NCBI RefSeq assembly: GCF_002019765.1 | Contig: NZ_KV917380.1 | Location: 1,755,858 to 1,819,857 of the forward strand | Length of the DNA stretch: 64,000 nt | From: Shouchella oshimensis | GTDB lineage: Bacteria; Bacillota; Bacilli; Bacillales; Bacillaceae_D | Direction: 5' to 3' | Shown: piece by piece, positions 8,146-38,584 of the stretch | Layout of the letters: each line of letters begins with the position of its first letter | Numbering within the stretch: position 1 is the stretch's first letter | Program-made: the position numbers and the translations under genes | The notes under the pieces: model-generated | The model's database searches: none | What the model saw: only the letters and a program-made list of their open reading frames with translations | Told to the model about the DNA's origin: nothing

Positions 8146-10218
8146 ATGTCCGATTATTTAGTAATCGTGGAATCTCCCGCTAAAGCCAAAACCATTGGTA
8201 AGTATTTAGGTAAGAAGTATGTCGTTAAAGCTTCTATGGGTCACGTGAGAGATTTGCCTAAAAGCCAAATGGGCGTTAGTGTAGAAGAAAATTATGAACC
8301 TCGGTATATTACAATACGTGGTAAAGGACCAGTGTTAAAAGAATTAAAGACTGCGGCAAAAAAAGCGAAACGCATTTATCTTGCGGCTGACCCGGATCGC
8401 GAAGGGGAAGCAATTGCGTGGCATTTAGCTCACAGTCTAAATATTGATGAGCACTCTGACTGTCGTGTTGTTTTTAATGAGATTACGAAAAATGCTATTA
8501 AAGATGCTTTTAAGCAGCCGAGACCTATTAATATGGATCTCGTTGATGCACAACAAGCAAGACGAATTCTGGACCGATTAGTGGGGTATAATATTTCACC
8601 GTTATTATGGAAGAAAGTAAAAAAAGGACTAAGCGCAGGGCGTGTTCAATCTGTCGCTGTTAAATTAATAACGGACCGAGAAAAAGAAATCCAATCGTTT
8701 GTACCAGAAGAGTATTGGAGTATCCAAGGACAATTTTCTTATGGGCAAGAACAATTTGAAGCTCGATTCCACAGTATAAATGGTAACAAAGAGACACTTT
8801 CTACAGAAGAAAACGTTCATCATATTCTTGATACATTGAGTGGAGCCGATTTTCGTATTGCTGAAGTGAAAAAACGCGAACGCAAACGAAATCCTGTTGC
8901 GCCATTTACAACCTCTTCCTTACAGCAAGAAGCTGCTCGCAAGTTGAATTTTAGAGCAAAAAAAACCATGCTTATTGCCCAGCAGCTTTATGAAGGTATT
9001 GATTTAGGAAAGCAAGGTACAGTTGGTCTAATCACTTATATGAGAACAGATTCTACTAGAATTTCTGATACCGCCAAACAAGAGACGTTTGAGTATATTC
9101 AAAAAAATTACGGTGAAGAGTATACAAAGAAAGAAGTGCAAAAACAAAAGCAAGATAAGAAAACCCAGGACGCCCACGAAGCCATTCGCCCAACGTCTGT
9201 TATGTATGAACCTAAGCAGATGAAAGAATATCTGTCTCGAGACCAACTACGCCTATATCGTTTAGTGTGGGAACGTCTTGTTGCAAGTGAAATGGCGCCT
9301 GCTGTAATGGATACCATGACCGTAGATTTAGAAAATAACGGTGTAATTTTTCGCGCAAATGGGTCTAAGCTTAAATTTCCAGGTTTCATGAAAGTGTATA
9401 TTGAAGGAAATGACGATAACAAAAAAGAAGAAGATCGTCTTCTCCCTGACTTACAAGAAAATGAAATGGTTGAGAAACAAGAGCTTAATCCAAACCAACA
9501 TTTTACCCAGCCGCCTCCGCGTTACACTGAGGCACGATTGGTAAAAACGTTAGAAGAACTAGGTATTGGACGCCCATCAACGTATGCACCAACCCTTGAT
9601 ACGATTCAGCGCAGAGGCTATGTGGCTCTTGATGAAAAGCGTTTTGTTCCAACAGAGCTAGGGGAAATTGTATTAGATTTAATCGTTGAGTTTTTCCCAG
9701 AGATATTGGATGTTGAATTTACAGCAAAAATGGAAGAAGATCTTGATAGTATTGAAGACGGACGCGATAACTGGATTGAGATTATTGATCAATTTTATAA
9801 AAGCTTTGAGAAGCGACTCGAAGTAGCAGAAGAACAAATGGAAGAAGTAGAAATCAAGGACGAGCCAGCAGGTGAAGACTGTGAGAAGTGCGGCCATGAA
9901 ATGGTTTATAAAATGGGGCGCTACGGCAAATTTATGGCTTGTTCTAATTTCCCTGATTGTCGAAATACAAAAGCCATTGTAAAAGACATTGGTGTGAAAT
10001 GTCCGACATGTAAAGAAGGGAATATTGTCGAGCGAAAAAGTAAAAAACGTCGCATTTTTTATGGATGTGATCGTTATCCAGAGTGTGAATTTGTCTCATG
10101 GGATAAACCAATCGCCCGTCCTTGTCCGAAATGCGAAAGCCTTTTAGTGGAAAAGAAATCGAAAAAAGGTGTATTCGTCGCATGTACTTCATGTGATTAT
10201 GAGGAAGAAAAACAGTAA
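8146..10218 (+). CDS. topA: DNA topoisomerase I
   Basis: TopA relaxes negative supercoils by transient cleavage of one strand. The start is taken at ATG 8146 ([19 protein letters not shown]) because AGGGAG lies 9 bases upstream; an in-frame ATG at 8128 lies before that site. The 690 residues hold an N-terminal TOPRIM domain ([15 protein letters not shown]), the central type IA domain with the catalytic Tyr298 in TYMRTDSTR, and three C-terminal tetracysteine zinc ribbons (CEKCGHEM..., CPTCKEG..., CPKCESL...). Architecture and length match the Bacillus enzyme. Confidence 0.97.
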
Positions 10219-26163: not shown

Positions 26164-27153
26164 ATGGCAGATGTATTGTCACAAGGGGAGATTGACGAAC
26201 TTCTTTCAGCATTAACAACCGGTGAAAAGAGTGCAGAAGACTTATTAAAGGTTGAAGCGGAGAAAAAGGTGCGAACCTATGATTTTAAGCGCGCCCTTCG
26301 TTTTTCCAAAGACCAGATGAGAAACTTGTCACGCATTCATGAAAACTACGCACGCATTTTAACAACTTATTTTTCAGCAAGGCTCCGCTCACTTGTACAG
26401 ATTCAAGTTGCCTCTGTGGAGCAAGTGCCCTACGAAGAGTATGTTCGTTCTATACCGTCGATGACGTTTTTAAATGTAGTTGAACCAAGACCGTTAAGTG
26501 GTCGATTTTTGCTTGAAACAAATCCTAATGTTGCTTATGCGATGTTTGATCGTGTTCTTGGAGGCAGAGGAACAAGCATTAACAAAATTGATAATTTGAC
26601 AGATATTGAAAAGAACATTCTGTCCGGACTGTTTGATTCAATGGTTCGAAGTTTTGCAGAAGCGTGGTCATCTGTCGTTCAACTTGAACCGGTTTCAGAA
26701 GTAACAGAGGTTAACCCACACTTTTTGCAGATGGTCTCACCGAATGAAACGGTTGTAGTCATCTCATTAGCGACGAGTATTGCCGAGACGTCTGGGTTAA
26801 TGACGATCTGTTTACCACATGTTGTTTTAGAAGATGTCTTACCCAAGTTGACGAATCATCATTGGTTCCAAGAGCAAAGACGTTCCATTTCACCAGAAGA
26901 AGAGGAAATGATGAATCGACAGCTTAAAAAAACGACCATTGATGTTTCTGTAGATTTAGGGAAATCTGCTATTACAATCGAAGAGTTTTTAAAATTAAGC
27001 ATTGATGATGTAATAACGCTAGACCAAGAACTATCATCACCTTTACATATGAATGTCGGTGGCGCATTGAAATTTAAGGGTCAACCAGGCTTACAGCGAG
27101 ACAGAATGGCTATTCAGGTGACAGATATTGTAGGAGGAACGGAAGATGAGTGA
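26164..27153 (+). CDS. fliM: Flagellar motor switch protein FliM
   Basis: FliM is a C-ring protein that binds CheY-P. The 329-residue protein retains the N-terminal CheY-binding peptide (VLSQGEIDELLSAL), a CheC-like middle domain, and the C-terminal SpoA/FliN-like domain (TTIDVSVDLGKSAITIEEFLKL, QPGLQRDRMAIQVTDI). Retention of the N-terminal peptide matters because the chemotaxis kinase gene is missing downstream. It overlaps fliY by 8 bases. Confidence 0.97.
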   Translation: MADVLSQGEIDELLSALTTGEKSAEDLLKVEAEKKVRTYDFKRALRFSKDQMRNLSRIHENYARILTTYFSARLRSLVQIQVASVEQVPYEEYVRSIPSMTFLNVVEPRPLSGRFLLETNPNVAYAMFDRVLGGRGTSINKIDNLTDIEKNILSGLFDSMVRSFAEAWSSVVQLEPVSEVTEVNPHFLQMVSPNETVVVISLATSIAETSGLMTICLPHVVLEDVLPKLTNHHWFQEQRRSISPEEEEMMNRQLKKTTIDVSVDLGKSAITIEEFLKLSIDDVITLDQELSSPLHMNVGGALKFKGQPGLQRDRMAIQVTDIVGGTEDE

Positions 27154-28285
27154 TAGACCTCTTTCTCAAGACGAAATTAATGCATTATTACAAGGGTTAA
27201 AAGAAGACGAACCATCTGAGCCTGAGAAAAATGACCAAGAGCATGAAACCGTTGAAATTACTGACATCCTTACACCAATGGAGCAAGACACCATTGGGGA
27301 AATAGGGAACATCTCTTTTGGTAGCTCTGCGACAGCGTTATCCACCTTGTTAAATCAAAAAGTGGAAATCACAACGCCGACTGTTACGTCAATAGATCAA
27401 TCTACACTACATGATTTGTTTCCTCATCCTCACGTCGTTGTTCATGTTGATTATACAGAGGGCTTTGAAGGCTCTAATTTATTTGTTATTACGACCAAAG
27501 ACGCTGCTATTATTGCAGACTTAATGTTAGGTGGTACTGGTGAGAAACCAGATGAAACACTAACAGACATGCACTTAAGTGCTGTACAAGAAGCGATGAA
27601 TCAAATGATGGGATCTGCTTCAACATCAATGTCTACATTATTTAACAGGAGAGTTGATATTTCCCCTCCTCGGGTGCAAATTGTCGACTTTAATACACAA
27701 AAAAAGCCTGAGTATGTTCCGGAAGGCGATCATCTTATCGGCATTTCGTTTTCATTGAAGTTAGGGGAATTAATTGACTCTCAATTATTACAAATTATAA
27801 ATGTGCCATTTGGAAAAAGTTACGCGCAAGCCTTACTAGGAGAAACACATGAAGTTGAAGAAACGCATGTAGAAAAAAAGGAATCAATAAAAGAACCTAC
27901 GTACTTTCAACAACATGAGGAACCAAATCGTGTTAAACAACCAACGCCAACTATGGCTAAAGAGCAACTTGTCGAAAAAGCGGTTTTTTCTAATTTTGAA
28001 AAACCAAACTTACCGGATAGCGAGATGAAAAATTTAGATATGCTCCTAGATATCCCTTTAGAAGTAAAGGTAGAACTAGGAAGGACGAAAAAAACGATAC
28101 AAGAAATTTTAACAATTTCACAAGGCTCTATTATTGAGCTAGATAAGTTAGCTGGTGAACCTGTCGATGTTCGCGTAAACGATCGACTTATAGCTAAAGG
28201 AGAAGTAGTCGTTATTGATGAGAATTTCGGCGTTCGAATTACAGATATCGTTAGTAAAAAAGAACGAATTAATCACTTGAATTAG
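27146..28285 (+). CDS. fliY: Flagellar motor switch phosphatase FliY
   Basis: FliY replaces FliN in Bacillus and dephosphorylates CheY-P at the switch. The 379-residue protein has a FliM-like N-terminal peptide (PLSQDEINALLQGL). Two CheC-type phosphatase motifs follow (DTIGEIGNISFGSSATAL near 49-66; SAVQEAMNQMMGSASTSM near 147-164), then a Glu/Pro-rich linker (about 230-290) and a C-terminal FliN domain (DIPLEVKVELGRTKKTIQEIL). Catalytic Glu and Asn appear in both CheC motifs. Confidence 0.96.
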   Translation: MSDRPLSQDEINALLQGLKEDEPSEPEKNDQEHETVEITDILTPMEQDTIGEIGNISFGSSATALSTLLNQKVEITTPTVTSIDQSTLHDLFPHPHVVVHVDYTEGFEGSNLFVITTKDAAIIADLMLGGTGEKPDETLTDMHLSAVQEAMNQMMGSASTSMSTLFNRRVDISPPRVQIVDFNTQKKPEYVPEGDHLIGISFSLKLGELIDSQLLQIINVPFGKSYAQALLGETHEVEETHVEKKESIKEPTYFQQHEEPNRVKQPTPTMAKEQLVEKAVFSNFEKPNLPDSEMKNLDMLLDIPLEVKVELGRTKKTIQEILTISQGSIIELDKLAGEPVDVRVNDRLIAKGEVVVIDENFGVRITDIVSKKERINHLN

Positions 28286-28309: not shown

Positions 28310-28672
28310 ATGGCGAAACAAATTTTAATTGTAGATGATGCAGCTTTTATGAGAATGATGTTAAAAGATATTTTAGAAAAGAACGGTTTTACGGTTGTAG
28401 CTGAAGCGAACGATGGAAACGAAGCGCTTGAGAAATACAAAGAATTTTCTCCAGATTTAGTAACCATGGATATTACAATGCCTGACAAAGATGGAATAAG
28501 CGCATTAAAAGAAATTAAAGAGTACGATCCTAACGCAAGCGTGATTATGTGCTCGGCAATGGGGCAACAAGCAATGGTTATTGATGCCATTCAAGCAGGG
28601 GCAAAAGACTTTATTGTCAAACCTTTCCAAGCTGATCGAGTTATTGATGCCATTTCTAAAGCAATCGGTTAA
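28310..28672 (+). CDS. cheY: Chemotaxis response regulator CheY
   Basis: CheY is a single-domain receiver that when phosphorylated binds the motor switch. The 120-residue protein has all receiver residues: Asp9/Asp10, phospho-acceptor Asp54 (VTMDITMP), Ser82 (CSAMG) and Lys104 (VKPF). ATG 28310 follows AAAGGGAG by 9 bases. It overlaps the next gene. No cheA is found in this operon, so its phosphodonor is not encoded nearby. Confidence 0.97.
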   Translation: MAKQILIVDDAAFMRMMLKDILEKNGFTVVAEANDGNEALEKYKEFSPDLVTMDITMPDKDGISALKEIKEYDPNASVIMCSAMGQQAMVIDAIQAGAKDFIVKPFQADRVIDAISKAIG

Positions 28673-32118: not shown

Positions 32119-34158
32119 ATGAAAGCGAAAGATTTAAGTATACTTGCTGGTGTGATTTTAATCATTGTGATGCTCATCATACCACTCCCTCCATTTTTGT
32201 TAGACGTATTAATTATTTTTAATATCTCTTTATCTTTGCTTATCTTACTTGTGGCACTAAATACAAAAAACGCGCTTCAATTTTCTGTGTTTCCGACAAT
32301 GCTTCTTCTTGTGACGCTGTTTCGCTTAGGATTAAGTGTGTCAACAACCCGTTCCATTTTAGGTGAAGCACACGCTGGGAACGTTATTGATACGTTTGGA
32401 AGCTTCGTAATTGGTGGGAATGCAGTTGTAGGATTTGTCGTGTTCTTGATTCTCATTATTATTCAGTTCCTTGTCATTACAAAAGGTGCTGAACGAGTGT
32501 CGGAAGTCGGTGCCCGCTTTACCCTTGACGCAATGCCAGGAAAGCAAATGAGTATTGATGCCGATTTGAACGCAGGGTTAATTTCTGATCGTGAAGCAAA
32601 AGCCCGTCGAGAAAAGATTGAAAATGAAGCCGATTTTTACGGCTCAATGGACGGAGCAAGTAAGTTTGTAAAAGGAGATGCTATTGCTAGCATTATAATC
32701 GTCATCATTAATATGGTCTTTGGTCTTGTCATTGGCATGATGCAAATGGGAATGGATTTATCGACGGCGGCGAGTACCTATACATTACTTACAGTTGGAG
32801 ATGGTCTTGTTACGCAAATTCCAGCATTGCTCATTTCAACTGCAACAGGTGTCATTGTCACGAAAGCTGCTTCTGAGGGCAGTTTAGGAAATGACTTAAC
32901 AAAGCAACTTTTAGCTTATCCAAAACTGTTGTATGTGACCGCTGCAACAATTTTCCTTTTAGGGGTTACGACGCCTATCACAAAAGTTGTGACGTTTTCT
33001 GTTGCTGGATTGCTTGCGTTTGCTGGTTATCGCTTATCGAAGGCTCGGACAGTTGAAGAGGAAATGGAACACCAATTACAAGAAGAAACAACAGATGTAC
33101 CAGAGCCTACAGGTCCTGAATCTGTACTGTCGTTAATGAAGATGGACCCAATAGAGTTTGAATTTGGCTACGGTTTGATCCCTCTTGCCGATGCGAATCA
33201 AGGGGGCGATTTGCTTGATCGCGTCGTAATGATTCGTAAACAAATGGCACTTGAACTTGGAACCATGATTCCTGTTATTCGCATCCGAGATAACCTATCG
33301 TTAGAACCTAACGCGTATACAATAAAAATTAAAGGTGATGTGGTTGCAAAAGGAGAGGTTCTTCTTGATCATTATATGGCGATGAGCACAGGGATTGAAG
33401 ATGAGCGAATTACAGGCATAGCAACAGTCGAGCCCGCTTTTGGTCTAGAAGCCATGTGGGTAACAGAAGATGTGAAAGAAGAAGCAGAGCTGTCTGGCTA
33501 CACGGTTGTTGATCCGCCAACGGTAATCTCGACTCATTTAACCGAGTTGTTAAAAACCTATGCGCACGAACTTTTAGGAAGAGAAGAAACCAAGGCGTTA
33601 ATTGAACACGTAAAAGAAACGTACCCAACTCTAGTGGAAGAGGTTACGCCAACACCTTTATCTATTGGAGATGTACAGAAAGTATTGAAGAATCTATTAA
33701 GAGAACAGCTATCCATTCGTAATTTACCAATGATTTTTGAAACTCTGGCAGATTATGGTTCGCGAACAAAAGATATGGACGTAGTGACGGAATATGTTCG
33801 TCAAGCACTCTCTCGGCAAATTTCAGAGCAGTTAACAGACGAGCAAAATAAACTAGCCGTTATTACCCTTGCGAGTGAAGTAGAAAAGCGTATCGCGGAT
33901 GCAGTTGGACAAAATGAAAACGGGCATTTTTTAGCTTTAGCACCGGCTGATTCACAAACGATTTTGCAGCAGACTGCATCGGAAACAACGAAATTAGCAG
34001 AAATGGGGCAACAGGCTGTCATTCTATGTTCACCAGCTGTTCGGATGTATATGCGACATTTAATTGAACGTTACCTTCCTCAAGTACCAGTCATTTCATA
34101 CAATGAATTAGATGCTAGTGTTGAGGTACAAAGTGTAGGGGTGGTGAGATTGCAGTGA
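32119..34158 (+). CDS. flhA: Flagellar export protein FlhA
   Basis: FlhA uses the proton motive force and binds export chaperones. The 679-residue protein has about eight N-terminal membrane helices and the cytoplasmic FHIPEP loop (FVITKGAERVSEVGARFTLDAMPGKQMSIDADL). The four-lobed C-terminal domain follows (LGREETKALIEHVK, IRNLPMIFETLADY). ATG 32119 follows AAGGAAGGAGGG. It overlaps flhF by 4 bases. Confidence 0.98.
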   Translation: MKAKDLSILAGVILIIVMLIIPLPPFLLDVLIIFNISLSLLILLVALNTKNALQFSVFPTMLLLVTLFRLGLSVSTTRSILGEAHAGNVIDTFGSFVIGGNAVVGFVVFLILIIIQFLVITKGAERVSEVGARFTLDAMPGKQMSIDADLNAGLISDREAKARREKIENEADFYGSMDGASKFVKGDAIASIIIVIINMVFGLVIGMMQMGMDLSTAASTYTLLTVGDGLVTQIPALLISTATGVIVTKAASEGSLGNDLTKQLLAYPKLLYVTAATIFLLGVTTPITKVVTFSVAGLLAFAGYRLSKARTVEEEMEHQLQEETTDVPEPTGPESVLSLMKMDPIEFEFGYGLIPLADANQGGDLLDRVVMIRKQMALELGTMIPVIRIRDNLSLEPNAYTIKIKGDVVAKGEVLLDHYMAMSTGIEDERITGIATVEPAFGLEAMWVTEDVKEEAELSGYTVVDPPTVISTHLTELLKTYAHELLGREETKALIEHVKETYPTLVEEVTPTPLSIGDVQKVLKNLLREQLSIRNLPMIFETLADYGSRTKDMDVVTEYVRQALSRQISEQLTDEQNKLAVITLASEVEKRIADAVGQNENGHFLALAPADSQTILQQTASETTKLAEMGQQAVILCSPAVRMYMRHLIERYLPQVPVISYNELDASVEVQSVGVVRLQ

Positions 34159-35141
34159 TCATAAAAAAAATCAAAGCACCTACGTATGAGCAAGCCTATG
34201 AATTGATGCGCCAAAGCATCGGTTCAAAAGCCGTTATCTTGCACTCTCGTTATGTAACGGAGGGTGGTTGGCTCGGATTCTTTAAAAAAGAAGTATGTCA
34301 ACTGACGGTTGGGATCGAAGAACAAAAGCAACGAACCCCCTCCTACGAAAGTACCTTTGTGAAAGAAGCTCAAAACGTCAACACCTATATTGATCGTTTA
34401 GAGGTTACACCAACAGTAAAAAAAGGATTGGCCCTAACGGCAAAAATGATAGAAGATCGTGGTGTAGTAGGGGGTGTAACAGTTTATAACCAAATGCTAC
34501 AGGCTGTTATCAAACCGCAAACGACGGTAATCGGAGAAAAGCGGATCTGCTGTCTTTTGGGACCAACCGGTGTAGGAAAGACAACAACCGTTGCGAAGCT
34601 TGCTGCTCATGCTCGGTATGAGCAAGGAAAATCAATCGCTTTTATTACATTAGACACGTTCCGAATTGCTGCAGTCGAGCAGTTAAAAAAATATAGTGAG
34701 ATTTTAGACTGTCCGTGCCACGTTGCATATGATGCATCTGAATTAACTGCCTTATGCACGAAGGTCAACGCTGATATGATTTTTATTGATACACCAGGAG
34801 ATAATTATTTGCATTCACAACTCGCCGATCCTCTTGTTCAATTTTTAACAACAAGGAGCGACGTCGAATGCCACGTAGCGTTAAGCTTAACAATGAAATC
34901 AAGCGATCTTGAAGAACTGTTAAAGCCGTTTTCACCTATCACCATCGATAGCTTTATCTTAACAAAAAAAGATGAAACACGAACCATGTCGCTATTGACA
35001 GAGCTACTTTATAAACGTAAAGAGCCTGTTTCCTGTGTTACAACAGGACAACATGTACCAAACGATTTGTGTTATCCAACTGCCAAGCAGTTAATGGGAT
35101 GGCTACGTTTGGAGGAGGAACACAATGGATCAAGCGTATGA
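34155..35141 (+). CDS. flhF: Flagellar SRP-type GTPase FlhF, altered G3 motif
   Basis: FlhF is the third SRP GTPase and positions flagella. The 328-residue product has a short basic B region, an N domain and a G domain. The G domain has P-loop GPTGVGKT (136-143), DTFRIAAVEQL (167-177) and TKKD (270-273). The G3 motif, DTAGR in SRP GTPases, reads DTPGD (212-216), replacing Ala and the conserved Arg. Hydrolysis or activation may be altered; that is inference. The start is GTG 34155. It is somewhat shorter than B. subtilis FlhF, mostly between the B region and the N domain. It overlaps flhG by 17 bases. Confidence 0.92.
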   Translation: MIIKKIKAPTYEQAYELMRQSIGSKAVILHSRYVTEGGWLGFFKKEVCQLTVGIEEQKQRTPSYESTFVKEAQNVNTYIDRLEVTPTVKKGLALTAKMIEDRGVVGGVTVYNQMLQAVIKPQTTVIGEKRICCLLGPTGVGKTTTVAKLAAHARYEQGKSIAFITLDTFRIAAVEQLKKYSEILDCPCHVAYDASELTALCTKVNADMIFIDTPGDNYLHSQLADPLVQFLTTRSDVECHVALSLTMKSSDLEELLKPFSPITIDSFILTKKDETRTMSLLTELLYKRKEPVSCVTTGQHVPNDLCYPTAKQLMGWLRLEEEHNGSSV

Positions 35142-35709
35142 TTTACGGCAACGATCAGTTGAGCATGCACTTAAAAAAAGAAAGTCACTGCATCTTTATA
35201 TACAGCATAAAGAGGATGCGCTAATTATCGAGCAACTGATTCAATCATTGAGTGATTACGGATATGAATCGTTTTGCGTTGCCACACCAGAAGCGAAGGC
35301 TCGTTTCAGACCGAAATTTCAAGATCAGCTTCTGCATCCAGATGTTCTACAACAATCTTCGTCTTTGCGGATCGATGTATGTCTTTTCATCCAAGTTGAA
35401 GGAGAAGAAGTGCTACGATCAGCCGATATTCCAGCTATTTTGTTTCTATCTGCAAATGAAGAGCGACTCATCACCGCGTATCAATTATTAAAAAAACATA
35501 CACCTCCTCGTGCTTACATCATCGGATCTGAAATAGATTCAACGAAACGAAATCAACAAGCCCGGTTAAACTTACGTGAAACGGCAAATCGCTTTCTGCA
35601 AATTGAAGTAGTGGATCTCGGATTAGTCAATAAAGCAAGCGCCAGTTTTACGGATGCGGTCTATGAGGCAATTGGGTTGCTAATAAAAGATTGGTTATTA
35701 GAAAAATGA
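35125..35709 (+). CDS. FlhG-derived protein lacking the ATPase P-loop
   Basis: In normal FlhG (YlxH) an N-terminal DQAxxLR helix stimulates FlhF, followed by a MinD-type ATPase with a KGGVGKS P-loop. Here the 194 residues begin MDQAYDLRQRS, so the activator motif is kept. The P-loop region instead reads LYIQHKEDALIIEQLI, and no KGGxGK, DxD or DxGAG motif is present. The C-terminal half still resembles FlhG: ITAYQLLKK, YIIGSEIDSTKRNQQ, RETANRFLQIEVVDLGLV. It is about 100 residues shorter than the family. It sits at the flhG position after flhF with RBS GGAGGAGG. I read it as a pseudo-ATPase FlhG; another origin is possible. Confidence 0.75.
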   Translation: MDQAYDLRQRSVEHALKKRKSLHLYIQHKEDALIIEQLIQSLSDYGYESFCVATPEAKARFRPKFQDQLLHPDVLQQSSSLRIDVCLFIQVEGEEVLRSADIPAILFLSANEERLITAYQLLKKHTPPRAYIIGSEIDSTKRNQQARLNLRETANRFLQIEVVDLGLVNKASASFTDAVYEAIGLLIKDWLLEK

Positions 35710-36317
35710 TGATTGAACGAAATCAAGTGAATGATCGGAATGGTCACTCTGTTATTGTTGCCATCGGCAGCTCCACTGGTGGTCCAAATGCTTTGCAAAA
35801 GCTGTTTGAACAGCTACCACATCACTTGTCATACCCAATTGTTATTGCCCAGCATATGCCCGGGCATTTTACCGCTTTATTGGCTAAACGTTTAAATGAG
35901 CAGTTCTCATTTCAAATAAAGGAAGCCCAGCATGATGAGGTAGTTCAAAATGGTGTTGTCTATATAGCACCTGGAGGATGGCAAACAACCCTTGTCCAGA
36001 AAGGAAATCGTGCTTTTTTCGAAATCACAGAACCGCATCAAGCTGATTTGTATCATCCTTCCATTAATACATTGTTTGCTTCGACTACGTTTTTTAACAA
36101 AAAGATCTTGGTTGTTTTAACCGGTATGGGAAGAGATGGTTCTGCTTCTTTACAAGCAGTAAAACAATCAGGTGGCTGCACTATTTTAGCGGAAGCGAAA
36201 GAAAGTGCGATTATTTCCGGTATGCCTGATGCAGCCATTAAGACTGGACAAGTAGACTGGGAATTGACTCATATCGACATTGGAAAATGGTTACACGAAA
36301 GGGGAGGCTCATTGTGA
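35706..36317 (+). CDS. cheB: CheB methylesterase domain protein without receiver domain
   Basis: CheB removes methyl groups from, and deamidates, chemoreceptors. The usual protein is about 350 residues with an N-terminal receiver. This one has 203 residues and is only the catalytic domain. The catalytic residues are Ser23 (IGSSTGGP), His50 (AQHMPGHFT) and Asp144 (LTGMGRDG), followed by SGMPDAAI. The receiver is missing: the gene starts at ATG 35706 overlapping the FlhG-like stop by 4 bases, and upstream sequence is taken by that gene. Without a receiver the enzyme cannot be activated by CheA phosphorylation in the usual way. The neighbouring cheA and cheW genes are also missing. Confidence 0.9.
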   Translation: MMIERNQVNDRNGHSVIVAIGSSTGGPNALQKLFEQLPHHLSYPIVIAQHMPGHFTALLAKRLNEQFSFQIKEAQHDEVVQNGVVYIAPGGWQTTLVQKGNRAFFEITEPHQADLYHPSINTLFASTTFFNKKILVVLTGMGRDGSASLQAVKQSGGCTILAEAKESAIISGMPDAAIKTGQVDWELTHIDIGKWLHERGGSL

Positions 36318-36919
36318 CAATGGAACAAGATTTGTTAAAAGAAGTTGCCAACATTAGTACAGGTTATGCGGCAACGGCTTTGTCAACTCTTTTACAGCGA
36401 CAAGTAGCGATGAATGTGCCAGAAATCGCCCTTCATGAAATGGAAGATTTACCACGATTGAGTGGATACCACCATGAAGTGTGTGCGACGGTACATGCAC
36501 CAATTGCTGGTGACGTGGAAGGGACAATGTTTTTCTTAACAAGTATGGATACAGCGGTCCGCCTAGTCAATATGGTTTTACCGAATGTGGTAAATGATCT
36601 TGATGTACAAGCTTATCCACTTGCTTCCTCTGCGTTTCAAGAGATTGGTAACATTGTTATAGGCTCTTATGTAACAGCGATTGGTTCTCTCACGTCATTA
36701 ACCCTTTACCCACTTGTAACGGAGTTAACCATTGATATTGGAAGTGCAGTTTTAGCAGAGGCGACCTATCAGCTTGTTGAAGTAGATCAGTTTTTTCTAA
36801 TGGAAACGGCCATGAGAGTGAAAAATGAAGAAGAAGGAATGGAAGGTTTCTTGCTATTTATACCGAATGAGAGGGCTGTTTCAGTATTAAAAAGAGCTCT
36901 TGAAAGAGATCGTCCATGA
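36314..36919 (+). CDS. cheC: CheY-P phosphatase CheC
   Basis: CheC dephosphorylates CheY-P and binds CheD. From GTG 36314 (after AGGGGAGG) there are 201 residues with both phosphatase motifs: DLLKEVANISTGYAATAL (Glu10, Asn13) and SSAFQEIGNIVIGSYVTAI (Glu110, Asn113). In B. subtilis it follows cheW; here it directly follows cheB with a GTGA overlap. It ends overlapping cheD by 4 bases. Confidence 0.92.
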   Translation: MTMEQDLLKEVANISTGYAATALSTLLQRQVAMNVPEIALHEMEDLPRLSGYHHEVCATVHAPIAGDVEGTMFFLTSMDTAVRLVNMVLPNVVNDLDVQAYPLASSAFQEIGNIVIGSYVTAIGSLTSLTLYPLVTELTIDIGSAVLAEATYQLVEVDQFFLMETAMRVKNEEEGMEGFLLFIPNERAVSVLKRALERDRP

Positions 36920-37401
36920 TAGAGCAACGTGAAACAATCTCAATAGGTGAATGGAAAGTGTTGAGTCATACAGGAACACTGCGAACGTGTGGCTTAGGCT
37001 CTTGTGTTTGTGTTGTTCTATACGATGATACTCATATGCACGCCGGTATGGTGCATATTATGCTTCCAGATTCAAAACAAGCTAGAAAAACAGCATTTAA
37101 TCCTTGGCGCTATGCGGATACAGCGTTGACGCTTTTACATAGGGAGTTAGTTAATCAAGGTGCTGGCAACTTACAAGCAAAAATAGCAGGTGGCGCGCAA
37201 ATGTTCCGTCACGCAATGCGACAAGAATACATGCAAATCGGAAGGCGAAATGTAGAAGCGGTAACACAATGGCTTGAAAATGCCTATATCCCAGTAGTTG
37301 CAAAAGATGTTGGTGGAGCATGTGGAAGAACCGTGGAATTTACACTTCCTACTTTCGTCATGCATGTGCGTACGGCGAGCAAAACGATTAAACAGATATA
37401 G
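36916..37401 (+). CDS. cheD: Chemoreceptor glutamine deamidase CheD
   Basis: CheD deamidates receptor glutamines and, with CheC, forms an adaptation system in Bacillus. The 161-residue protein has the catalytic Cys30 in TCGLGSCV and His47 in GMVHIMLP, 17 residues apart as in characterised CheD, plus KIAGGAQMF. The active site is intact. Confidence 0.95.
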   Translation: MIEQRETISIGEWKVLSHTGTLRTCGLGSCVCVVLYDDTHMHAGMVHIMLPDSKQARKTAFNPWRYADTALTLLHRELVNQGAGNLQAKIAGGAQMFRHAMRQEYMQIGRRNVEAVTQWLENAYIPVVAKDVGGACGRTVEFTLPTFVMHVRTASKTIKQI

Positions 37402-37416: not shown

Positions 37417-38172
37417 ATGAAATCAGAAGCTGAGCTTTGGGCATTGTGGCACGAATCAAAATCAAGTGAAGCGATTGAAGCATTAATTCACTATTATTTA
37501 CCTCTCGTTCAATTTCATGTTCAGCGTGTATCAAAAACATTGCCCGCAACAGTGACGAAAGATGAATTAAAAAGTCATGCTTTAGAAGGATTATTTGATG
37601 CCATCCAGCGATTCGATCCAAGTCGTGACTTAAAATTTGATACATATGCGTCGTTTCGTATTCGAGGTGCCATGATTGACGGTCTTCGGAAAGAAGATCG
37701 TTTACCACGGACGATTCGCGAAAAAATTAAGCGAATGGATCAAATTGTTGAGCAACTAGAGCAAGCTCAAGGTCGATCCGTACATGAAGCTGAAATTGCT
37801 GCTGAAATGAAATTATCATCAAAAGAAATCTCTTCTATTCGATATGATCAATTTATCAGTATGAATGTTTCGTTTGACGAGCTAGTGTCATCAACAGGTG
37901 ATGGTGTTTATCAAACGCAGGTAAAAGACGAACAAATGGAACAACCTGGCGAGCGTCTTATTCAAACAGATACAAAGAATGAACTGATTGAGCGACTAAA
38001 GGCGTTAAATGAAAACGAGCAGCTTGTCATTCAACTCAGTTATTTCGAAGAACTATCGTTAACCGACATTGGTAGAGTATTAAATCTATCTACATCAAGG
38101 ATTTCACAGATTCACGCAAAAGCGATAAAAAAACTAAAGCAAGGATTTGTGGAACGAGCGTTCGTTCGTTAG
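37417..38172 (+). CDS. sigD: RNA polymerase sigma factor SigD (FliA)
   Basis: SigD directs transcription of flagellin, motor, receptor and autolysin genes. The 251-residue protein has region 2 (ALEGLFDAIQRFDPSRDLKFDTYASFRIRGAMID), region 3 and region 4 with the helix-turn-helix SLTDIGRVLNLSTSRISQIHAKAIKKL. ATG 37417 follows AGAAGGAGAGG. Position near the end of the fla/che operon is as in B. subtilis, where distance from the promoter influences its expression. Confidence 0.97.
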   Translation: MKSEAELWALWHESKSSEAIEALIHYYLPLVQFHVQRVSKTLPATVTKDELKSHALEGLFDAIQRFDPSRDLKFDTYASFRIRGAMIDGLRKEDRLPRTIREKIKRMDQIVEQLEQAQGRSVHEAEIAAEMKLSSKEISSIRYDQFISMNVSFDELVSSTGDGVYQTQVKDEQMEQPGERLIQTDTKNELIERLKALNENEQLVIQLSYFEELSLTDIGRVLNLSTSRISQIHAKAIKKLKQGFVERAFVR

Positions 38173-38185
38173 AAGGAGGGGTTAA

Positions 38186-38584
38186 ATGGATATATGGATT
38201 ATCTTACTTGTATTCGCTGTCATTGGATTAGCTATCAAGATAACAAAGCTTCAGCAGCAGCTAAATCAACGCTTAACGAAAGAAGAATTAGAAGAAGCGC
38301 TTGCTACTTTTTTACACGACATTAAAAAGGATAATGAAATCGTCATGGATACGTTTCATCAACAAATCAATCATTCGAACGAAAAACCGTCTACTGTCGT
38401 CGATTTTAAAACGGAAACGAGCCGTCCTACTAAAAATAAAACGGCATCGTTTAATCGTGATCAAGTAGTAGATAAGGTGCGTACTTACCAGCAGAATGGA
38501 AAGGGTCCTGCTGATATTGCAAAAACGTTACAGATTGGCATACGAGAAGTCGAGCTTATTCAACATTTAAACAAGCAAAACTAA
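38186..38584 (+). CDS. swrB: SwrB-like protein at the end of the fla/che operon
   Basis: The 132-residue protein has one N-terminal membrane helix (about 3-20), a charged coiled-coil segment (about 21-60), a polar linker, and a C-terminal helix-turn-helix-like domain (VVDKVRTYQQNGKGPADIAKTLQIGIREVELIQHL). Topology and position match SwrB (YlxL), which promotes assembly of the flagellar export apparatus in B. subtilis. Sequence similarity is assumed from layout, so the symbol is tentative. Confidence 0.7.
   Translation: MDIWIILLVFAVIGLAIKITKLQQQLNQRLTKEELEEALATFLHDIKKDNEIVMDTFHQQINHSNEKPSTVVDFKTETSRPTKNKTASFNRDQVVDKVRTYQQNGKGPADIAKTLQIGIREVELIQHLNKQN

Follow-up and report, generated by a model that had tools for sequence, protein, structure and literature searches.

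In fla/che operons of the Bacillus subtilis type, the chemotaxis genes follow the order cheB-cheA-cheW-cheC-cheD-sigD. A 64,000-nucleotide stretch of the Shouchella oshimensis chromosome (contig NZ_KV917380.1, positions 1,755,858 to 1,819,857; here called the window) carries an operon that is alike in gene order (flhA-flhF-flhG-cheB, a gap, and cheC-cheD-sigD), in the accompanying CheC, CheD, and CheV proteins, and in a FliY protein with a CheC-like domain. Three features set it apart: cheA and cheW are encoded at another site, the CheB protein lacks a receiver domain, and the flhG slot is filled by a shortened protein without a P-loop.

A CheB protein without a receiver domain has been described in Campylobacter jejuni (PMC3879368, PMC340952), where CheA bears a response-regulator domain of its own (PMC3879368). 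CheA, CheW/CheV, and CheY are kept in both C. jejuni and Shouchella; unlike C. jejuni, Shouchella has CheC and CheD, a CheA in which Pfam finds no response-regulator domain, and intermediate stages of CheB within the genus. One of these papers states that what CheB phosphorylation does in B. subtilis is unknown (PMC340952). For FlhG, two papers describe the DQAxxLR helix as an activator of the FlhF GTPase and list the residues that bind FliY (PMC12826062, PMC12327844); one of them also describes an ATP-dependent FlhG homodimer that binds GpsB and is linked to the peritrichous placement of B. subtilis flagella (PMC12327844). The MinD-like ATPases FlhG and FleN (PDB 4rz3 and 5j1j) share with the Shouchella protein the position after flhF, the DQAxxLR N terminus, and a C-terminal part that can be aligned by profile, whereas the Shouchella protein lacks GKGGVGKS and is about 90 residues shorter. 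In sister genera of the same family, cheA and cheW are likewise absent from the fla/che operon; these genera have a second cheY, a receiver-bearing CheB, and a P-loop FlhG, and in Shouchella all three are lacking, save for a full-length CheB in one species (G007).

Position and age of the cheA-cheW pair

The TGA stop codon of cheB (36315 to 36317) and the GTG start codon of cheC (36314 to 36316) overlap by 4 bases in S. oshimensis, in agreement with the initial annotation of the window. A likely ribosome-binding site of cheC, GGGGAGG, lies at 36301 to 36307, and cheC might instead start at an in-frame ATG at 36320; with either codon, cheA and cheW cannot fit between cheB and cheC. No cheA or cheW match was found in the cheB-cheC stretch of any of 12 che loci from the genus. 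The two frames overlap in 11 of the 12 genomes; in the other (G008, a fragmented assembly that is 86% complete and also has an odd FlhG C terminus), they lie 163 bases apart and the cheC frame is shortened. All six loci read from other genera of the family have cheC directly 3′ of cheB. The retention of CheY, CheC, and CheD that had been described is evident from an open reading frame (ORF) for cheY and Pfam matches for the other two, and the N-terminal peptide of FliM, MADVLSQGEIDELLSAL, is of a type that we take to be CheY binding.

The initial annotation had proposed that the kinase and coupling protein had either moved elsewhere or been replaced by another phosphate donor for CheY; the search of the genome that it suggested supports a move and offers nothing in favor of another donor. 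Both genes—cheA (656 codons) and cheW (148 codons)—lie in the same chromosome at C1:1478444-1480850, about 311 kb before cheB. A pst-phoU operon and then a 147-codon gene are found upstream, and a divergent asnB lies beside the pair (gene names by reading). Pfam identifies the Hpt, P2, H-kinase_dim, HATPase_c, and CheW domains in CheA, and loss of the kinase was rejected on the presence of the pair. The genome further contains a CheV with CheW and Response_reg domains (Pfam), the receiver being intact; cheA, cheW, and cheV account for all three of its CheW-family matches. One CheR match and five matches to the methyl-accepting chemotaxis protein (MCP) domain were also found, one of the latter carrying a flag for an internal stop. 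A strict pattern, presumed to be of the receptor methylation type, is present in three of the five receptor loci, as SASTEEQLAS in two of these. A soluble receptor-like ORF of 295 residues, with a PAS-like N terminus by reading, was seen at L008:1513-2400, where the surrounding MCP-domain match holds a TAG stop. Among 34 receiver matches in the genome, the operon-encoded CheY is the best match to an outgroup CheY2 (75%); the next best (38%) is spo0F, located between pyrG and fbaA (gene names by reading). The relocated CheA would serve the CheY of the operon, so that the pathway has a kinase, and the suggested CheY output with no kinase is, as far as sequence tells, not what this chromosome encodes.

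The region before cheA carries a conserved element. Scanning with a pattern that we take to reflect the SigD consensus (TAAA, 17 bases, CCGATAT) revealed a SigD-like box pair at all 11 genus loci scanned (G008 left out), with one mismatch in S. oshimensis, G002, and G003 and two in the other eight; two-mismatch matches are expected by chance about 0.2 times per 240 bases, and conservation is the stronger argument. In S. oshimensis, the −10-like sequence CCGATAA (8398 to 8404 of locus L009) overlaps a 14-pair hairpin (8403 to 8436) that is followed by a T run. Alignment of 10 of the 12 leaders (G007 and G008 left out) showed CCGATAAAGARTACGAG and, beyond a short loop, CTCGTA conserved in all 10, and RNAalifold pairs CCGATAAAGARTACGAG with CTCGTA as a hairpin in which one pair is changed on both sides. 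Within this region (L009:8380-8445; C1:1478379-1478444), the −10-like box and stem are kept throughout these 10 loci and the flanks differ. In G007, the box reads CCGATAC and the hairpin is weaker. The cheV gene of S. oshimensis is preceded by TAAA-17-CCGATAT, and a CCGAT-type box was found upstream of cheA in one of six outgroup loci. As a guess, a promoter starting inside a terminator could insulate cheA from transcripts reading through from the phosphate operon without stopping those that it initiates itself.

The separation of cheA-cheW from cheD extends far beyond this species. Both are present and apart in 12 of 13 genomes of the genus and in all 40 family genomes that have both, among 41 searched (for a fragmented assembly, "apart" denotes location on a different contig). 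Sampling the order evenly gave 91 genomes, 80 of them with cheD; cheW lies beside cheD in at least 67 of these (1.1 to 1.25 kb from match start to match start) and not beside it in at least 10—four from family f1, three from f5, and one each from f35, f42, and f45—with three undecided among the matches listed (G072, G074, and G082). A search within 10 kb of cheD at 80 named loci failed to find cheA in seven and cheW in six. Those without both belong to Shouchella miscanthi, Alkalihalobacillus sp. BA299, three Halalkalibacter, and Bacillus suaedae. S. miscanthi is the nearest named locus, with a CheD identity of 93%, and its first 60 CheB residues are those of G002. At the Oceanobacillus manasiensis locus (L176:7734-9342), cheW directly follows cheB and no cheA was found in 20 kb. 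Comparison with relatives, which the initial annotation had advised for dating the change, places it deep: judged from gene order in the 40 family genomes and in four further families, the split is old, and neither a recent nor a local loss.

At the separate site, a cheA-cheW-cheY2 trio is present in all nine loci read from other genera of the family (one or two per genus, six genera) and in all six kinase loci of families f5, f42, f45, and f35. This last count omits L223 (G089:C1:2832000-2851900), a second CheW place in an f5 genome with weak CheW and CheB-like matches, perhaps another chemosensory system. Since relatives carry the pair together with a second cheY, one ancestral move of cheA-cheW with that cheY is likely on present gene orders. 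No CheY match was found at the Shouchella cheA loci. A gene for an AddA-like helicase is found close to cheA in all nine outgroup loci of the family and in 6 of the 12 Shouchella loci; Shouchella therefore probably shares this site, with later changes in the clade of S. oshimensis. In the CheA tree (midpoint root, 26 of the named loci included), CheA of the genus groups with that of other family genera with support of 95/98 on a long branch, and long branches meet inside the genus, as a tool warning noted. This placement suggests vertical, fast-evolving descent and not a foreign origin, and horizontal replacement of CheA was rejected on it. The kinase relocation is by itself ordinary.

Domain losses in CheB and FlhG

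A receiver-less CheB beside a P-loop-less FlhG, neither of which was mentioned in the initial annotation, is more unusual than the relocation. CheB reading frames are present in all 12 genus genomes, and all 12 proteins contain the methylesterase domain, which is the only Pfam domain of the S. oshimensis protein. Its core aligns over the full length with the solved catalytic domains 3sft (best, 3.5e-34), 1chd, and 1a2o, and S23, H50, and D144, presumably the catalytic Ser, His, and Asp, are invariant in alignment A2. An N-terminal receiver with a phosphoacceptor Asp is missing. Across the genus, a full-length CheB with a Pfam receiver was found in one genome (G007; Response_reg, 9.7e-22), seven have a degenerate N-terminal stretch of about 110 residues without the phosphoacceptor region, and four—S. 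oshimensis, G002, G003, and G009—have no such stretch. G007 is the first to branch off in the CheA tree, where the four genomes without a receiver cluster together, so the loss steps nest. Read in this order, the CheB receiver is lost stepwise within the genus, the phosphorylation site first and the whole domain later. The S. oshimensis protein is, judged by its domain content, most likely a methylesterase freed from CheA control.

Elsewhere among the named loci, the receiver part of CheB lies in another frame or is broken in Peribacillus butanolivorans (L164:5636-6643) and Halobacillus alkaliphilus (L116:5778-6855), through decay or sequencing error; these two were not counted as receiver-less. 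CheB is in two pieces at L118, L136 is a contig end, and the receiver pattern missed L176 (LDVHMP), which reads as intact. In Exiguobacterium flavidum (L151:6039-8947), no CheB was found in the operon and cheA directly follows flhG.

The FlhG-like protein begins with MDQAYDLR, so that DQAxxLR occupies residues 2 to 8. This motif is kept in all 12 Shouchella genomes with a che operon, and a GKGGVGKS-type P-loop is present in none of them; all 11 rows of a reference FlhG alignment have the P-loop. The reading frame is likewise present in all 12, with a C-terminal end in G008 that looks shifted. A query with intact FlhG found the protein in 78 of the 80 named loci, every one with DQAxxLR and 75 with the strict P-loop pattern; by eye, the other three comprise two variants and one degenerate sequence (L116). 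The two loci without a match are a contig end and S. miscanthi, whose FlhG-like gene has a start resembling that of G002, a genome in which the P-loop is lacking.

A profile of the 12 FlhG-like proteins matched intact FlhG (E value, 6.9e-6; 74 columns; probability, 84.5). Searched against 199 genomes of the order, it found the S. oshimensis protein and otherwise only weak partial matches in 17 genomes (E values, 1.9e-8 to 9.7e-4), located in open frames of 288 to 306 residues; such a search would miss an independently arisen, diverged P-loop-less FlhG. The S. oshimensis protein matched no Pfam family at an E value of 0.001, the 12 proteins gave scattered weak Pfam matches at E values up to 5 (best, 0.0065), NCBIfam gave no match for the S. 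oshimensis and G007 proteins, and a PDB sequence search with the profile returned two designed proteins (E values, 0.0088 and 0.37). Two of the described FliY-binding residues, mapped through an Anoxybacillus relative, are matched here, Lys177 aligning with Lys123 and Phe215 with Phe157 (Tyr in one genus member); Arg207 is not. From its retained motif, the protein is most likely an ATP-independent activator of FlhF. Among the titles, abstract openings, and passages of openly accessible literature that were searched, we found nothing on Shouchella CheB and no P-loop-less FlhG.

Proposed history and its alternatives

We consider it highly probable, from the comparisons above, that an old relocation of cheA-cheW left CheA still serving CheY and was followed by losses in Shouchella that affected CheB, FlhG, and the second cheY. 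An ancestor of the family, and probably of some sister families as well, would have carried cheA-cheW with an extra cheY at a separate site, which within the family lies close to addAB-like genes, and the relocated CheA and CheW would have continued to phosphorylate the CheY encoded in the operon. Shouchella would then have lost the extra cheY, its FlhG the ATP-binding core with the FlhF-activating N-terminal motif kept, and its CheB the phosphorylation site and later the whole receiver. The gene positions, the domain losses, and the constraint on the remaining parts are direct readings of the sequence. CheB would now demethylate receptors without control through CheA phosphorylation, with feedback adaptation possibly carried by CheC, CheD, and phosphorylated CheY and by CheV with its intact receiver, and FlhG would stimulate FlhF without an ATP-driven cycle.

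A stronger version of this history is that both switches are gone, leaving a CheA-free methylesterase and an FlhG that acts as an ATP-independent FlhF activator and would be the first naturally ATPase-less FlhG, with the FlhG ATPase lost first, the CheB phosphosite second, and the whole receiver last. This version we advance tentatively, with somewhat less conviction than doubt. If true, an FlhG reduced to its activator motif would uncouple stimulation of FlhF from the role driven by ATP. The genus series of full, phosphosite-less, and receiver-less CheB (1, 7, and 4 genomes) beside CheC, CheD, and CheV makes the question of CheB phosphorylation testable by domain swaps, and stepwise loss in two neighboring proteins could show what the regulatory parts are for.

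Several observations weigh against the proposed history. The AddA-like gene lies near the cluster in only one of the six loci from the four other families, so a shared site is established for this family only and the place may differ in the others; no such gene is next to cheA in the clade of S. oshimensis or in G012, and locus L188, where CheA is truncated, stops at a contig edge. A receiver-less CheB occurs with cheA still in the operon in the unrelated Bacilli Niallia endozanthoxylica (L144:6069-6755) and Alicyclobacillus sacchari (L119:6154-6873), so the loss arose more than once, and sister genera combine a relocated cheA with a full CheB. Since either change can be seen alone, relocation does not entail loss of the receiver, and a link between the two was rejected. 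AlphaFold2 (AF2) modeled the FlhG-like protein poorly (pLDDT confidence score, 54.8); with this model, Foldseek returned nothing at an E value of 0.001 or better, and FleN and FlhG, among the top matches at 0.003 to 0.005, stood beside the unrelated Hef nuclease, a likeness of low weight given that the AF2 alignment contained FlhG sequences. The number of receptors is 4 to 7 in the 12 genus genomes versus 6 to 38 in 28 genomes of other genera, chemotaxis proteins of the genus evolve fast, and the 13th genus genome (G004, 2.6 Mb, outside all counts of 12) yielded no CheW, CheD, or MCP-signal family match. These last three points keep general relaxation a live reading.

In that reading, chemotaxis in the genus is simply decaying, and the losses of the CheB receiver and the FlhG ATPase mark stages on the way to its disappearance and not a new working arrangement. 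The reduced receptor set, the species without pathway genes, the long CheA branch, and the low between-species identities of CheW, CheB, FlhF, and FlhG are consistent with it. The constraint on the remaining parts argues the other way: the ratio of nonsynonymous to synonymous substitution rates (dN/dS), estimated from one close species pair (S. oshimensis and G003, synonymous sites being near saturation or saturated versus G009 and G012), is 0.06 for CheA, 0.10 for CheW, 0.11 for CheB, and 0.09 for the FlhG-like protein, and the values of 0.02 to 0.05 for CheY, FliM, and FlhA indicate strong constraint. With the CheB and FlhG frames and DQAxxLR also kept in all 12 genomes, we regard decay as unlikely, though it is the most serious alternative to an old relocation followed by losses in CheB and FlhG.

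Response-regulator splits are known in general, and a separate receiver protein might replace the lost CheB domain in trans. Of the 34 receiver matches, only the operon CheY and spo0F lie in frames shorter than 200 residues, the other 32 being in frames of at least 208 residues, which makes such a replacement very improbable. Still less credence can be given to a different kinase or a small-molecule donor supplying CheY with phosphate and rendering CheA dispensable; nothing but the absence of cheA from the operon would fit this, whereas CheA is domain-complete with P2, is constrained, and is preceded by the SigD-like element at every genus locus scanned. An assembly error or collapse, against which the initial annotation itself had cautioned, is practically negligible and was rejected, as the genome is one contig (4,058,377 bases, 99.98% complete) with the pair assembled elsewhere and the cheB-cheC stretch lacks cheA and cheW in 11 further genus genomes assembled separately.

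Feature coordinates and a neighboring gene

Positions of chemotaxis and flagellar features in the window and, for cheA and cheW, in locus L009
Feature	Position	Strand	Basis or remark
fliM	26164..27153	+	ORF and translation; dN/dS 0.02 versus G003
fliY (CheC-like + FliMN_C)	27146..28285	+	Pfam CheC 4.7e-33, FliMN_C 7.7e-26
cheY	28310..28672	+	ORF; only close CheY found in genome
flhF (SRP-type GTPase)	34155..35141	+	Pfam SRP54 7.5e-30
FlhG-like protein, 194 aa	35125..35709	+	Alignments, profile-profile match; dN/dS 0.09 versus G003
cheB, methylesterase domain only, 203 aa	35706..36317	+	Pfam CheB_methylest only; dN/dS 0.11 versus G003
GTGA overlap, cheB stop/cheC start	36314..36317	+	Position of cheA-cheW in canonical operons
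cheC	36314..36919	+	Pfam CheC 1.6e-18
cheD	36916..37401	+	Pfam CheD 2e-31
sigD, flagellar sigma factor	37417..38172	+	Pfam Sigma70_r2, r3, r4; name from position and family
DUF6115 protein after sigD	38186..38584	+	Pfam DUF6115 5e-6; dN/dS 0.29 versus G003
cheA	L009:8445-10415	same as cheB	About 311 kb before cheB
cheW	L009:10405-10851	same as cheB	About 311 kb before cheB

The DUF6115 protein encoded after sigD has the highest dN/dS among the 15 genes compared with G003.

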